From Candidatus Delongbacteria bacterium (GTDB lineage Bacteria; UBA4055): a DNA stretch of 6,294 bases. A model generated the notes under the pieces. It worked only from the letters and a program-made list of their open reading frames with translations, had not been told where the DNA came from and made no database searches. Shown in pieces: positions 2,592-6,294 of the stretch. Both the position numbers and the translations under genes were made by a program. The stretch covers positions 1 through 6,294 of the forward strand of contig JAKLPX010000354.1 of NCBI GenBank assembly GCA_022013635.1, written 5' to 3'. Each line of letters begins with the position of its first letter. Within the stretch, counting starts at the first letter, position 1.

Positions 2592-3473
2592 ATGAATAAG
2601 TTTATCATCGTCTTTTTAATGATGTTTAACCTGCTGATTTCGGCAAAAACAGCAACAATTATTTTCAGCGGAAGCAACAACGGTTATTACAGAGACTGCG
2701 GCTGACCGATCGAAAGACTCGGCGGTCTTGCCGAAAGAAAAACATGTTTCGACAGTTTGAAAACTTTTGACGAAAATACTGTCTTTTTCGATACGGGAGA
2801 TATTTTGAATATAAAATCTTCGCTTAGCGACGACGAAATAGTCGCAGGGGTTTATCAATATCTCGGTTACGATGCAGTTGCCGTCGGCGATCAGGAGTTA
2901 ATCAATGGAATCAGTTTCTTTAAAAACAATCTGAGCAGTAAATTACCTGTTATATCTTCAAATTTAGAATTCAGCGACAAAGATATTAAGATTGAAAAAT
3001 ATAAAATAATCGAAACTAAAAACGGTATAAAGATTGGAGTTACAGCCGTGAATTTCAACACCAATTTCAGATACCTGATGAGAACCGATATCATCAGCGA
3101 AAGCGATATTATCGTTGATAAAGCTTTCGATAATCTTAAAAACACACTTGCCGATTTAAAAACAAAAGCGAACATTGTCGTTATTTTAGCTCACCTTGAC
3201 GAAGAAGGAATCGTAAAACTGTTGGATTTCGTTGACGATTACGATCTTGTAATCGGCGGAAATAACGGACAGGAATTCAAATACGCGCGGAAAGTGGAAA
3301 ATAAAATCTTTGTCCAAAACGGTAAGGACGGGGAGAAAATCGGAAAGGTTGTTTACGGAATAAATTCCGACGGAAAAGCTCAGTTTGAAAATTACGAGCT
3401 GATCAAAATCTTTGCAAAAAAATTGAAGCGAAACGATGAAATAGAAAAAATAATTTCGGATATGGAAAGATAA
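2592..3473 (+). CDS. Secreted UshA/metallophosphatase-like selenoprotein with Cys-Gly-Sec motif (UGA at codon 38 read as selenocysteine)
   Basis: This is one continuous frame of 293 residues if UGA 2703-2705 is read as selenocysteine. Residues 1-18 form a signal peptide (short basic start, hydrophobic core FIIVFLMMFNLLI, cleavage probably after ISA), so the product is exported. The rest resembles the N-terminal calcineurin-like domain of UshA/5'-nucleotidases: IIFSGSNNG (23-31), RDCGUPIERLGGLAER (34-49), FFDTGD (65-70), LGYDAVAVGDQE (91-102), ISSNLEF (121-127), LAHLDEEG (199-206), LVIGGNNG (219-226) and VQNGKDGEKIGKV (241-253). The 5'-nucleotidase C-terminal domain is absent. Metal-site motifs are degraded: DxH is SxN, GNHE is GDQE and GHxH is lost; Asp67, Asp70 and His201 remain. 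The only cysteines are Cys36 and Cys52, so Cys36-Sec38 could form a selenenylsulfide pair. It is first in the operon, one base before mltG. I recall NCBI family names of the type 'UshA-like (seleno)protein', not checked here. The biochemical role is unknown; a redox role is inferred. Confidence 0.85.
2703..2705 (+). other. In-frame UGA selenocysteine codon (Sec38)
   Basis: The codon lies between Gly37 and Pro39 in DCG-UGA-PIERLGGLA. From memory of related proteins, this family usually has Cys here (a CGC motif before a GGL-R block), so Sec would replace Cys in kind. Protein similarity to the family runs across the codon on both sides, and the next base is C, as in the E. coli fdhF UGA. UGA is not reassigned in this genome: Trp is TGG and UGA stops the next gene at 4501-4503. 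Confidence 0.85.
2706..2752 (+). promoter_or_regulatory. Bacterial SECIS element (selenocysteine insertion hairpin)
   Basis: Five perfect pairs, TCGGC (2719-2723) with GCCGA (2730-2734), close a six-base loop GGTCTT (2724-2729). The loop begins exactly 18 bases after the UGA. As I recall it, the E. coli fdhF SECIS also has its GGUCU loop core 18 bases after the UGA, where the GG and the bulged or looped U are read by SelB. A lower helix is possible between TCGAAA (2710-2715) and TTTCGA (2747-2752), with an asymmetric internal loop of 3 and 12 bases. The element lies inside the coding frame, as bacterial SECIS elements do. Confidence 0.82.
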
Positions 3474-3474
3474 A

Positions 3475-4503
3475 TTGACGAAACACAAACGGTTTTTACT
3501 TATCACACTGTTTATAACGCTTTCTGTTTTAATTATTCTGCCTGTTTGGACCAAAATTAGAATTTTTGAAAAAATTGTTTACTCCGGCACGGACAGCGTT
3601 TATTTTGAAATACCGAAAAGTTCTTCTTTGGAAGAAATATCATGTATATTGCAAAGAAATGGTTTTGACATTACCGAATTCGAATTAAAGCTTACGGCAA
3701 AATGGTTCGGAAAAGACTCCAAAATAAGGTATGGAAGATTTGTGTTTTATCCGTCTGATAATGTCAGATTAAGGGATTTTATAAATTTTTTAACGACGAA
3801 CGGCTCTTTGACAACAAATGTAACTATTCCCGAAGGTTCGAAAACTATTGACATCGCAAAGATTTTGAAAACGAATTTGAATATTGATTCGATATCATTC
3901 GTAGAAAGAACCCGCGATACTGAAATTTTGGAGAAATATAATTTGCCTGCGCAATCATTGGAAGGTTACTTGTATCCTGAAACATATAATTTTAACGAAG
4001 ACGAAAAAATTGATCAAATTATTGATAAAATGTTTCAAATGAACCGTATGAAATTGAGCGTGATAAGATCAAAAATTGACAGCTCTGGTTTCAGTGAGCA
4101 TCAAGTACTGACTTTGGCTTCGATCATTCAGGGTGAAGTGATGAATTATGACGAGATGGAATTCATAAGCGCCGTTTACAATAACAGACTAAAAAAAGGT
4201 ATGCTCCTTCAGGCAGATCCGACGATTCAATATCTTTTTGATAAACCAAAGAGGCTTTTGAATAAAGATTTAGCTATAGACAACCCTTATAACACATATA
4301 TTTACAATGGTTTACCGCCCGGACCGATTAATAATCCTTCTTTAAGAGCAATCAAAGCCGCCTTGGAGCCATCCGGCGAGCCATATACATATATGGTGGC
4401 AAAAGGCGACGGAAATCATTATTTCAACACTAATCTTGAGGGTCATCTCGAAGATAAAGCTAAACTTGATAAACTACGAAAAAGCGTAAAATATAGAAAG
4501 TGA
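3475..4503 (+). CDS. mltG: Endolytic murein transglycosylase MltG (YceG-like)
   Basis: The enzyme cleaves glycan strands within peptidoglycan at the outer face of the inner membrane and is thought to set strand length by acting as a terminase. The protein is 342 residues, close to E. coli MltG (340). It has one N-terminal membrane segment (about 7-25), a LysM-like region (about 40-110), then the YceG catalytic region: YLYPETYNF (165-173), LTLASIIQGEV (212-222), VYNNRL (234-239), LLQADPTIQY (244-253), PYNTYIYNGLPPGPINNP (271-288) and HYFNTN (315-320). Glu221 in ASIIQGE aligns with the catalytic Glu of the usual ASI-xxE motif. Start is TTG 3475, one base after the selenoprotein stop; it is the only usual start before an in-frame stop at 3451-3453, and GGAAAGA just upstream may serve as ribosome site. 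It ends with UGA, followed in the same frame by the lipoprotein gene. Translation is probably coupled to the upstream gene. Confidence 0.95.
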   Translation: MTKHKRFLLITLFITLSVLIILPVWTKIRIFEKIVYSGTDSVYFEIPKSSSLEEISCILQRNGFDITEFELKLTAKWFGKDSKIRYGRFVFYPSDNVRLRDFINFLTTNGSLTTNVTIPEGSKTIDIAKILKTNLNIDSISFVERTRDTEILEKYNLPAQSLEGYLYPETYNFNEDEKIDQIIDKMFQMNRMKLSVIRSKIDSSGFSEHQVLTLASIIQGEVMNYDEMEFISAVYNNRLKKGMLLQADPTIQYLFDKPKRLLNKDLAIDNPYNTYIYNGLPPGPINNPSLRAIKAALEPSGEPYTYMVAKGDGNHYFNTNLEGHLEDKAKLDKLRKSVKYRK

Positions 4504-4512: not shown

Positions 4513-4857
4513 ATGAAGAAGGTATTAATGGCTATTTTAATATCATTTTTGATCATAACTACAAATTGCGTAAAAAAAGAGAAGAACGATAACCGTTTGA
4601 ATGATGATTCTCAAGTTGTAAAATATTTTACCGTCGTTGCCAGCGGTTACGGTGAAACAAAAGAAAGAGCCGTGGAAGACGCAAAAAACGACGCTCTAAG
4701 ACAATTCGGATTTAATACAGTTAACAACAGCGGCAAACCCGAGTTATCGTATGCCGGCAAAATAGTGAGTTTTAAAATTATTAATGACTATTCCGAAGTG
4801 CTGAAAAACGGAATGTGGTGGGAAATTAAAGTAGAAGCGCAAATAGAAAAACTATAA
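4513..4857 (+). CDS. Small putative lipoprotein with LPP20/FlgT-N-like fold
   Basis: This 114-residue protein starts with a signal sequence: Lys2-Lys3, then a hydrophobic stretch (about 4-16), ending in TTNC with Cys19 as the likely lipidated residue. The lipobox is weak, with Thr at -3 and Asn at -1, although spirochaete-type lipoboxes tolerate this kind of variation. A charged linker follows. Residues about 40-114 read FTVVASGYGETKERAVEDAK, then DALRQFGF and a C-terminal strand WWEIKVEAQIEKL. The pattern 'G-G-t-x-x-A-x-x-x-A-x-x-x-A-l-r-q-x-G' resembles LPP20-type lipoproteins and the N-terminal domain of flagellar protein FlgT; this is pattern recognition, not a search result. It lies between mltG and pcrA, 9 bases after the former and directly touching the latter. 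The role is unknown; an envelope-associated protein is the safest description. Confidence 0.75.
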   Translation: MKKVLMAILISFLIITTNCVKKEKNDNRLNDDSQVVKYFTVVASGYGETKERAVEDAKNDALRQFGFNTVNNSGKPELSYAGKIVSFKIINDYSEVLKNGMWWEIKVEAQIEKL

Positions 4858-6294
4858 ATGAAAAACGAACTGAATTCAAAGCAACAATCGGCTGTAGTTA
4901 CAATTGAAGGACCTTTATTGATAATAGCCGGAGCCGGCAGCGGAAAAACCAGAACTCTTATTGAAAGAATAGCAAATATAATTTTATCGAAAAGAGCATT
5001 TCCTTCAGAAATTATGGCTGTAACTTTCACCAATAAAGCCGCTAAGGAACTTAAAGAAAGAATTGTTTACAGAGTGGGAGAAATAGGTAAAGCGGTTTTT
5101 GCAGGGACATTTCATTCCATAAGTGCCAGAATTTTAAGAAAGTACGCAGACAGATTGGGTTATAATTCCAATTTCGTCATCTATGATACCGAAGACAAAG
5201 AAAAAGTTGTGAAAGGAATGATCAAGAAGAATAATTTCAACAATTCGTCTTTCCCCCACAAGAAAATTTCGACTCTGATATCAATCCTGAAAAACAAATT
5301 GATTTATCCGGAAAATTACAATTCTGACACTGACGAATATTTTTACGATAAGATAAAAGATATTTACAGCGATTATCAGAGAGAGCTTGAAAAATGCAAC
5401 GCTTTTGATTTTGATGATTTGATCTGTATGACCGTAAAACTGTTCCAAAAGAACGAAGATGTGTTGTTTGAATATCAGAACAGGATTAAATATATCTGCG
5501 TTGACGAATATCAGGATACAAATTTTGTTCAGGACGAATTTGTCACACTCCTTTCAAAAATATATAAAAATGTCTGCGTAGTCGGAGACGAAGATCAGTC
5601 AATTTACAGCTGGCGTGGAGCGGATATAAATAATATTTTGACTTTTAAGGACAGACATAAGAATTGCGCCATGATTCAATTAGAGCAAAACTACAGGAGC
5701 TCCGCAAACATTCTCAAAACTGCCAATTCGATAATTTCAAAGAATATCCAGAGACTTGGAAAAAATTTATTTACCGAATCTGATTCGGGAGAAAAAATAA
5801 AGCTGATTTCATGCTTATCCGATATCAAAGAGGGAAATATCGTGATTGACGAAATTGTGAACACGGTTAACGAAGGATCCGAATTAAATGAAATCTGTGT
5901 ACTTTACAGAACAAACTCTCAAAGCAGAATTATCGAAGAAAATTTAAGAAAGAAGGGTCTCCCCTACTCTATTTTCGGGGGATTGAAATTTTATGAAAGA
6001 AAAGAAATAAAGGATATCACGGCTTACTTAAGGCTGTTGATAAATTCCGATGACAATGTTTCGTTTGAAAGAATATTAAATTTTCCGCCCAGAGGAATCG
6101 ACAAGAAAACCCTGGAAAAAATTAAATCTAAGGCAATTCAAACGGGATTGTCGTATTTTCAGGTATTAAAATCCTCGGATATATTTCATTCGGATTCAAA
6201 ATCAAACAATAAAATTTCGGAATTTATTGAGCTGATAGAGACAACTGCCATTGAAATGATTAAGTTTAATGCTCAAAAAACAGCAGAATTTATC
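4858..6294 (+). CDS. pcrA: UvrD/PcrA-type superfamily 1A DNA helicase, 3' end outside window
   Basis: This ATP-driven 3'-5' DNA helicase family unwinds DNA in repair and replication restart and strips proteins from DNA, in the cytoplasm. The first 479 residues are present, about two thirds of the usual 720-740. Visible motifs in order: Q motif LNSKQQSAV (5-13), Walker A AGAGSGKT (24-31), motif Ia AVTFTNKAAKEL (54-65), Ib GTFHSISARIL (83-93), DFDDL (184-188), motif II VDEYQDTN (215-222), motif III GDEDQSIYSWRGAD (243-256), motif IV LEQNYRSS (275-282) and GGLKFYERKEIKD (374-386). Motifs V and VI lie beyond the edge. DEYQDTN and RGADI are closer to PcrA than to E. coli UvrD, but the two names overlap. 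ATG 4858 touches the lipoprotein's TAA in the same frame, with no clear ribosome site, so translation is probably coupled. No frame damage is seen. Confidence 0.95.
   Translation, partial: MKNELNSKQQSAVVTIEGPLLIIAGAGSGKTRTLIERIANIILSKRAFPSEIMAVTFTNKAAKELKERIVYRVGEIGKAVFAGTFHSISARILRKYADRLGYNSNFVIYDTEDKEKVVKGMIKKNNFNNSSFPHKKISTLISILKNKLIYPENYNSDTDEYFYDKIKDIYSDYQRELEKCNAFDFDDLICMTVKLFQKNEDVLFEYQNRIKYICVDEYQDTNFVQDEFVTLLSKIYKNVCVVGDEDQSIYSWRGADINNILTFKDRHKNCAMIQLEQNYRSSANILKTANSIISKNIQRLGKNLFTESDSGEKIKLISCLSDIKEGNIVIDEIVNTVNEGSELNEICVLYRTNSQSRIIEENLRKKGLPYSIFGGLKFYERKEIKDITAYLRLLINSDDNVSFERILNFPPRGIDKKTLEKIKSKAIQTGLSYFQVLKSSDIFHSDSKSNNKISEFIELIETTAIEMIKFNAQKTAEFI

Follow-up and report, generated by a model that had tools for sequence, protein, structure and literature searches.

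The contig JAKLPX010000354.1, from a Candidatus Delongbacteria genome (assembly GCA_022013635.1; 2.04 Mb in 413 contigs, 82% complete), raises the question of how a single UGA triplet is read: as a stop, as tryptophan, or as selenocysteine (Sec). The stretch analysed, which we call the window, is 6,294 nucleotides (nt) long, and coordinates refer to its forward strand unless stated. A reading frame of 293 residues runs from an ATG at position 2592 to a TAA at 3471–3473 (gene, 2592–3473), and its sole in-frame stop before the end is the UGA at 2703–2705, codon 38. A Shine-Dalgarno-like AAGGAG (2578–2583) is found 8 nt 5' of the ATG; these start signals and the frame broken only by the UGA had been claimed in a first-pass annotation and are read directly from the sequence. 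Residues 1–18 (MNKFIIVFLMMFNLLISA, 2592–2645) form a predicted signal peptide, judged by eye from the translation, and the first two ten-residue blocks of the predicted structural model have local confidence scores (pLDDT) of 58 and 63. The codons for residues 36–38 (2697–2705) would specify Cys-Gly-Sec. In our strongly favoured reading, which we consider highly probable, the UGA is decoded as Sec under a selenocysteine insertion sequence (SECIS) hairpin and the product is a protein with predicted export and a predicted UshA fold.

The UGA is a conserved feature of the gene. Thirteen genomes labelled as Candidatus Delongbacteria relatives, including the source genome, were compared, and a protein with one TGA is present in ten of these: the window copy and nine others at 57–70% identity, the set spanning five genera. 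The string DCG-UGA-P is common to all ten orthologues. Of the remaining genomes, G002 has a longer copy, 33% identical and also with one TGA, G010 has a weak fragment only, and the search of the 13 genomes found no copy in G001. A scan of the genome contigs recovered nine loci, by length the same nine contigs as those of the relatives just described, with no Cys or Trp form among them. Sequence change among orthologues is biased towards third codon positions both upstream and downstream of the UGA, with a weaker signal in the 18 codons before it. Synonymous variation is lower in codons 39–51 than elsewhere in the gene (permutation p = 3.4e-4; 19 distinct codons over 11 columns), the pattern that an overlapping RNA element would produce.

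These patterns bear directly on the possibility that the locus is a pseudogene or contains a sequencing error, with the UGA as a nonsense mutation and the frame beyond it either a remnant or translated from an internal start. Gene callers do start downstream, and in 25 of 36 database homologues the sequence starts only at window residues 40–91, leaving out everything up to the UGA; yet the UGA is kept in ten of ten orthologues from five genera, third-position bias is seen on both sides of it, gene order is conserved, and the Shine-Dalgarno site and signal-peptide-like start both lie 5' of it, so that we regard decay or error as scarcely credible. The first-pass annotation had anticipated a truncated gene call from TTG 2757. 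A 238-residue frame from that codon does appear in the open reading frame (ORF) list of the window, but the database copy of the protein (P0002, 222 residues) begins further downstream, at residue 72 (TTG 2805). Residue 38 is covered by just nine of the 36 database homologues (five Cys, four Trp) and not by the other 27.

What occupies this column in more distant relatives, where the first-pass annotation had looked to Cys or Sec, was examined by searching 290 genomes with the NCBI family model NF041198, of which 229 matched and 19 exceeded the cut-off. The homologous column was aligned for 91 DNA rows. Those with UGA comprise the ten Delongbacteria orthologues and 39 others, namely 38 with exactly one TGA, among the NF041198 matches listed, and the longer G002 copy (L021); those with Cys come from 12 NF041198 loci, 14 of 20 additionally fetched loci and 9 paralogue loci from the phylum search. 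The column holds UGA in 49 rows, Cys in 35 and another codon in 7, as the Sec interpretation had led one to look for, although the ratio of 49 to 35 says nothing about frequency because the UGA rows were fetched for their marked single TGA. Cys-Gly directly precedes the UGA in 47 of the 49 rows, the exceptions being L126 (CPT-U) and L136 (SG-U). UGA-free UshA-like paralogues of about 300–311 residues (L023:1363-2295 and L027:1435-2346) have CxC at the Sec column (ENCNCP and EGCNCP respectively) and adjoin a secretin-like ORF, the secretin being recognised by eye.

The same column speaks to an altered genetic code with UGA read as tryptophan, a notion prompted by the motif RDCGWP in four database homologues (P0003, P0028, P0031 and P0033). 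The Trp in those four entries probably comes from a UGA translated with table 4 in automatic gene calls. A sense codon stands in 42 of the DNA rows; it is for Cys in 35 and for Trp in a single row (L163, NDHHGYCW), which looks like an ordinary hydrolase at this position. Moreover, TGA serves as a stop, terminating the mltG gene of the window and, in L016, L017 and L020, the orthologues of the selenoprotein gene itself. Reassignment to tryptophan is thus very improbable.

Selenocysteine insertion calls for a structural signal, and the window contains a candidate immediately 3' of the UGA. The predicted SECIS apical hairpin (2719–2734) has a stem TCGGC/GCCGA and a loop GGTCTT. The first-pass annotation had placed a hairpin with this loop 18 bases after the UGA; the hairpin is present, but it is the loop, at 2724, that starts 18 nt after the UGA, the stem starting at 13 nt. 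A lower helix of 6 bp, also suggested then, may form between 2710–2715 and 2747–2752; across 11 homologues 74.2% of its cells are paired, with one double change, compared with 94.5% for the apical stem. Published limits for bacterial SECIS elements are a loop of 3–9 nt with G in the first two positions, a stem of 4–16 bp, a spacing of 16–37 nt and a minimum free energy (MFE) of at most −7.5 kcal/mol (PMC13188914). The window hairpin satisfies the loop, stem and spacing limits, in line with the earlier expectation that it would fit a bacterial SECIS model, and its energy is −8.3 kcal/mol with one extra base on each side and about −9.8 to −10.0 kcal/mol with the lower helix. The window has 264 TGA triplets, counting both strands, and this is the only one followed by a SECIS-model hairpin of −7.3 kcal/mol or lower; the corresponding figure for 11 further loci from this genome is 22 of 1367. 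A scan of the window against Rfam returned no family at gathering scores.

The association between hairpin and UGA extends across the family. Of the 39 other UGA copies, 32 have a SECIS-model hairpin that equals or exceeds the window's in stability, as do 3 of the 35 Cys copies (Fisher p = 7e-11; p = 2e-9 for energies corrected for G+C content), in a test that allows free spacing and leaves out only the seven rows with neither UGA nor Cys. The threshold of −7.3 kcal/mol is the window's own value, so the ten of ten scored by the orthologues is partly built in and the 39 other copies constitute the test; the p-values overstate independence, since the aligned rows are related and are not independent events. 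Within 23 copies having the window's loop type (the ten orthologues and 13 others, selected because the stem has GG and the loop GGTCT), 16 stem cells have changed on both sides, compared with 5.5 in shuffles, and the covariation score is 0.354, compared with a best value of 0.129 when the stem is slid along the alignment. This choice of copies biases the invariant columns towards pairing, though it does not promote the double changes at columns 25–27. Two SECIS placements, with the loop 18–19 nt or 28 nt after the UGA, occur within the one family (examples being L119, L121, L130 and L135).

Several observations weigh against this account of the hairpin. The bare 16-nt hairpin, at −7.3 kcal/mol, falls 0.2 kcal/mol short of the published limit. 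The unconstrained MFE fold of the 48 nt beginning at the UGA is a different hairpin that uses the bases of the UGA itself, and 88.9% of the cells of this competitor are paired, although a ribosome standing at the UGA would presumably block it. Seven of the 39 other UGA copies lack a hairpin that matches the window's in stability, and the best hairpin is variably placed, its loop lying 18–19 nt after the UGA in 11 copies, 28 nt after it in 21 and elsewhere in 7. The ten orthologues together with L021 show no double change in the stem and no excess over shuffles; covariation appears only once more distant copies are included, and just 13 of the 39 other copies enter the 23-row set, with L123, L136 and L140 having their most stable hairpin elsewhere. 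When a single fixed stem is imposed, which left out 26 of the 91 rows for other spacing or codon, the difference is weak: all four pairs form in 13 of 33 Sec rows and 3 of 22 Cys rows (p = 0.07), and pair 17–30 in 16 of 33 and 11 of 22 (p = 1.0).

The machinery for Sec insertion is widespread in the phylum and partially recovered from the source genome. The first-pass annotation had asked for selA, selB, selC and selD in the same genome: selA (540.6 bits, cut-off 267.9) and selB (367.8 bits, cut-off 242.25) are present, whereas selC and selD were not found in the 82% of the genome that is assembled, one of these searches having had no positive control, and this too counts against Sec insertion here. 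The refuting condition named in the first-pass annotation, a complete genome without selB, selC and selD, does not strictly apply to a genome of this completeness in which selB is present. Three matches to the tRNA-Sec model in the genome were set aside, ARAGORN identifying them as tRNA-Leu, tRNA-Leu and tRNA-Arg. In the 13 genomes, selA occurs in all, the source genome included, and tRNA-Sec (selC) exceeds the cut-off in ten; the three with no match above it are the source genome, G009 and G010 (82, 86 and 88% complete). At the ten loci above the cut-off, ARAGORN calls tRNA-SeC in four and nothing in six, so the latter six tRNA-Sec genes depend on the Rfam model alone. The selD gene is found in 12 of the 13 genomes and has one in-frame TGA in 11, the G006 match being partial and lacking the N-terminus. 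The context of this TGA is AAG-UGA-AGK in 11 of the 12 selD matches (L062–L072), followed by GTCCGGAGGAC in nine of the 11. Incompleteness is probably the best explanation for the absence of selC and selD, and both genes would then lie in the unassembled part of the source genome.

Taken together, the UGA in ten of ten orthologues, Cys at the matching position of other homologues, a covarying hairpin linked to UGA and the Sec machinery of the phylum lead us to conclude with high confidence that the conserved UGA, with its matching hairpin, is a Sec codon, as first proposed. The triplet at 2703–2705 would be read through SelA, SelB and tRNA-Sec, directed by the predicted hairpin at 2719–2734, with Sec actually inserted to give one protein of predicted export and predicted UshA fold.

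How this gene relates to known selenoproteins was judged from two NCBI families named 'UshA-like (seleno)protein', a name that the first-pass annotation had also given, correctly. With NF041198 (UshA_like_PCGU) the window protein shares the N-terminal module (profile positions 18–300) and the C-G-(U/C) column; a GG a few residues further on is shared as well, and the loop type and spacing are alike in several members. However, it scores 109.4 bits against a cut-off of 275, its match ends at position 300 of a profile that runs to 519, it has 293 residues where three members checked above the cut-off have 498–581, and its motif is DCGUP where the family mostly has PCGU. Members L098, L103 and L108 possess a cytochrome c554-like C-terminal region with four CxxCH motifs, whereas the window translation contains no CxxCH, nor did Pfam report any domain in it. 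Being below the cut-off and without the C-terminal part, the protein is a variant of the UshA-like kind and not a member of NF041198. The second family, NF049981 (UshA-like (seleno)protein family 2), likewise represents an UshA-type selenoprotein, and its profile of 262 positions is comparable in length, but the window protein scores 34.8 bits against its cut-off of 140, and the motif listed for it is CxxU, compared with CxU here. The first-pass annotation had not placed the protein among the classical bacterial selenoprotein families; it does not fall outside the known ones, since an UshA-like family has been in print since at least 2008. Three sources list COG0737/UshA-like, with CxU, as a selenoprotein (PMC2398784, PMC9312934, PMC13188914), and the first of these, a marine survey, tabulates 76 Sec and 92 Cys sequences. 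The window gene is likely to be a short, wrongly annotated form of this published family. We found no paper in the PMC library searched pairing Delongbacteria with selenocysteine or selenoproteins.

Heme-less and tetraheme forms coexist in the wider family. In 14 of the 39 other UGA copies the stop lies inside the piece of sequence examined, and eight of these have four CxxCH motifs and six have none. Heme-less UGA copies outside Delongbacteria (L111, L118, L121, L126, L136 and L146) rule out the idea that this form is special to the phylum. The longer G002 copy (L021:1474-2682) combines HCG-UGA-P with a cytochrome c554-like region at the C-terminus. In the public database its protein (P0038) is cut to 354 residues, which cover 88% of the copy; this truncated entry was the sole match in a homology search with L021. 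Elsewhere, two NF041198-type genes stand side by side on one contig, each with one in-frame TGA (L147 and L103, G208:C229:22588-25725).

What the protein does can be approached through its fold. The predicted model retains a metallophosphoesterase fold, and fold and profile matches are to 5'-nucleotidases and the thiosulfohydrolase SoxB, although the score lies far below the 550-bit cut-off for SoxB. Compared with the 5'-nucleotidases (E. coli UshA, 3ivd and CD73), the window protein lacks the C-terminal 5'-nucleotidase domain, most of the metal ligands are replaced, and the Cys-Gly-Sec motif is an addition. The two-metal ligands are those of E. coli UshA, and their columns were taken from L031, which looks intact. 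By this measure the set is not intact in the window: D-x-H has become S28 and N30, N-H has become D100 and Q101, and GGHDH has become N224 and G226. The Cys-Gly-Sec motif lies 6–10 residues after loop positions 28 and 30, the first two ligand positions of the hydrolases.

A selenoprotein in which Cys36 and Sec38 act as metal ligands or nucleophile of a remodelled hydrolase or thiosulfohydrolase-like enzyme, and not as a redox pair, would suit the hydrolase matches, the nearness of the motif to the ligand positions and the retention of D70 and H201, two metal-ligand columns kept in the window that tell against a purely redox function. Yet S28, N30, D100, Q101, N224 and G226 replace the other ligand and catalytic columns, L012 and L016 have N or Q in place of H201, L020 has G in place of D70, and the cytochrome-like region of the relatives points to electron transfer; we consider a remodelled hydrolase unlikely, though a serious alternative. 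The loss of metal ligands, the spacing of C-x-U and the cytochrome-like part of the longer relatives suggest instead a redox role for the Cys36-Sec38 pair. The 2008 marine survey counts UshA-like, together with SelD and FdhA, as exceptions among major families to a conserved Cys-based redox motif (PMC2398784). Because the fold is kept, most metal ligands are lost and Cys-Gly-Sec sits near the first-ligand loop, the protein would likely act in the periplasm, by selenolate/thiolate redox chemistry or by thiol transfer. In the longer relatives the same module is joined to the tetraheme cytochrome-like region, a possible electron supply, and the short form would need a separate partner.

The genomic setting of the gene is stable. 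Downstream, an mltG gene for an endolytic transglycosylase (MltG/YceG; 3475–4503) begins after a single intervening base and is present at all nine relatives' loci. It is followed by an ORF of 114 residues (4513–4857) with a lipoprotein-like start, recognised by eye, which lies between mltG and uvrD at six of the nine loci and has no match in Pfam or NCBIfam, and by a gene for a UvrD/PcrA-type helicase (4858–6294, extending past the window end; nine of nine loci). Divergently, on the reverse strand, 1–2346 encodes a GlmS-like protein with glutamine amidotransferase and SIS domains, which extends past the window end and recurs at eight of nine loci; at the ninth (L096) the contig starts just before the selenoprotein gene. 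The GlmS-like protein has at least 782 residues, being cut by the window end, and scores 275.3 bits against a cut-off of 418.05 for the 607-position GlmS model. The promoter claimed in the first-pass annotation, a sigma-70-like TTGACA-17-TATATT (2517–2545), does match the consensus at 11 of 12 positions, but is only suggestive, as the whole scan gave 5 sites against 4.5 expected in shuffles.

For the wider family, we propose tentatively, and at somewhat less than an even chance, that in Delongbacteria and some other lineages a hydrolase fold has turned into a free-standing periplasmic selenol redox enzyme, with the dimetal site lost, Cys-Gly-Sec in the active site, no tetraheme half and a separate electron partner, and that in Delongbacteria it heads a conserved row with mltG. 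Neither NCBI selenoprotein model captures the short form at its cut-off, and of the 36 database homologues 25 lack the part up to the UGA. The results also add a candidate phylum with a Sec toolkit, including a SelD with its own in-frame UGA in most members. Finally, setting the short UGA copies without heme beside the long tetraheme ones separates the selenium module from its likely electron supply, and so opens the function of UshA-like selenoproteins to test.
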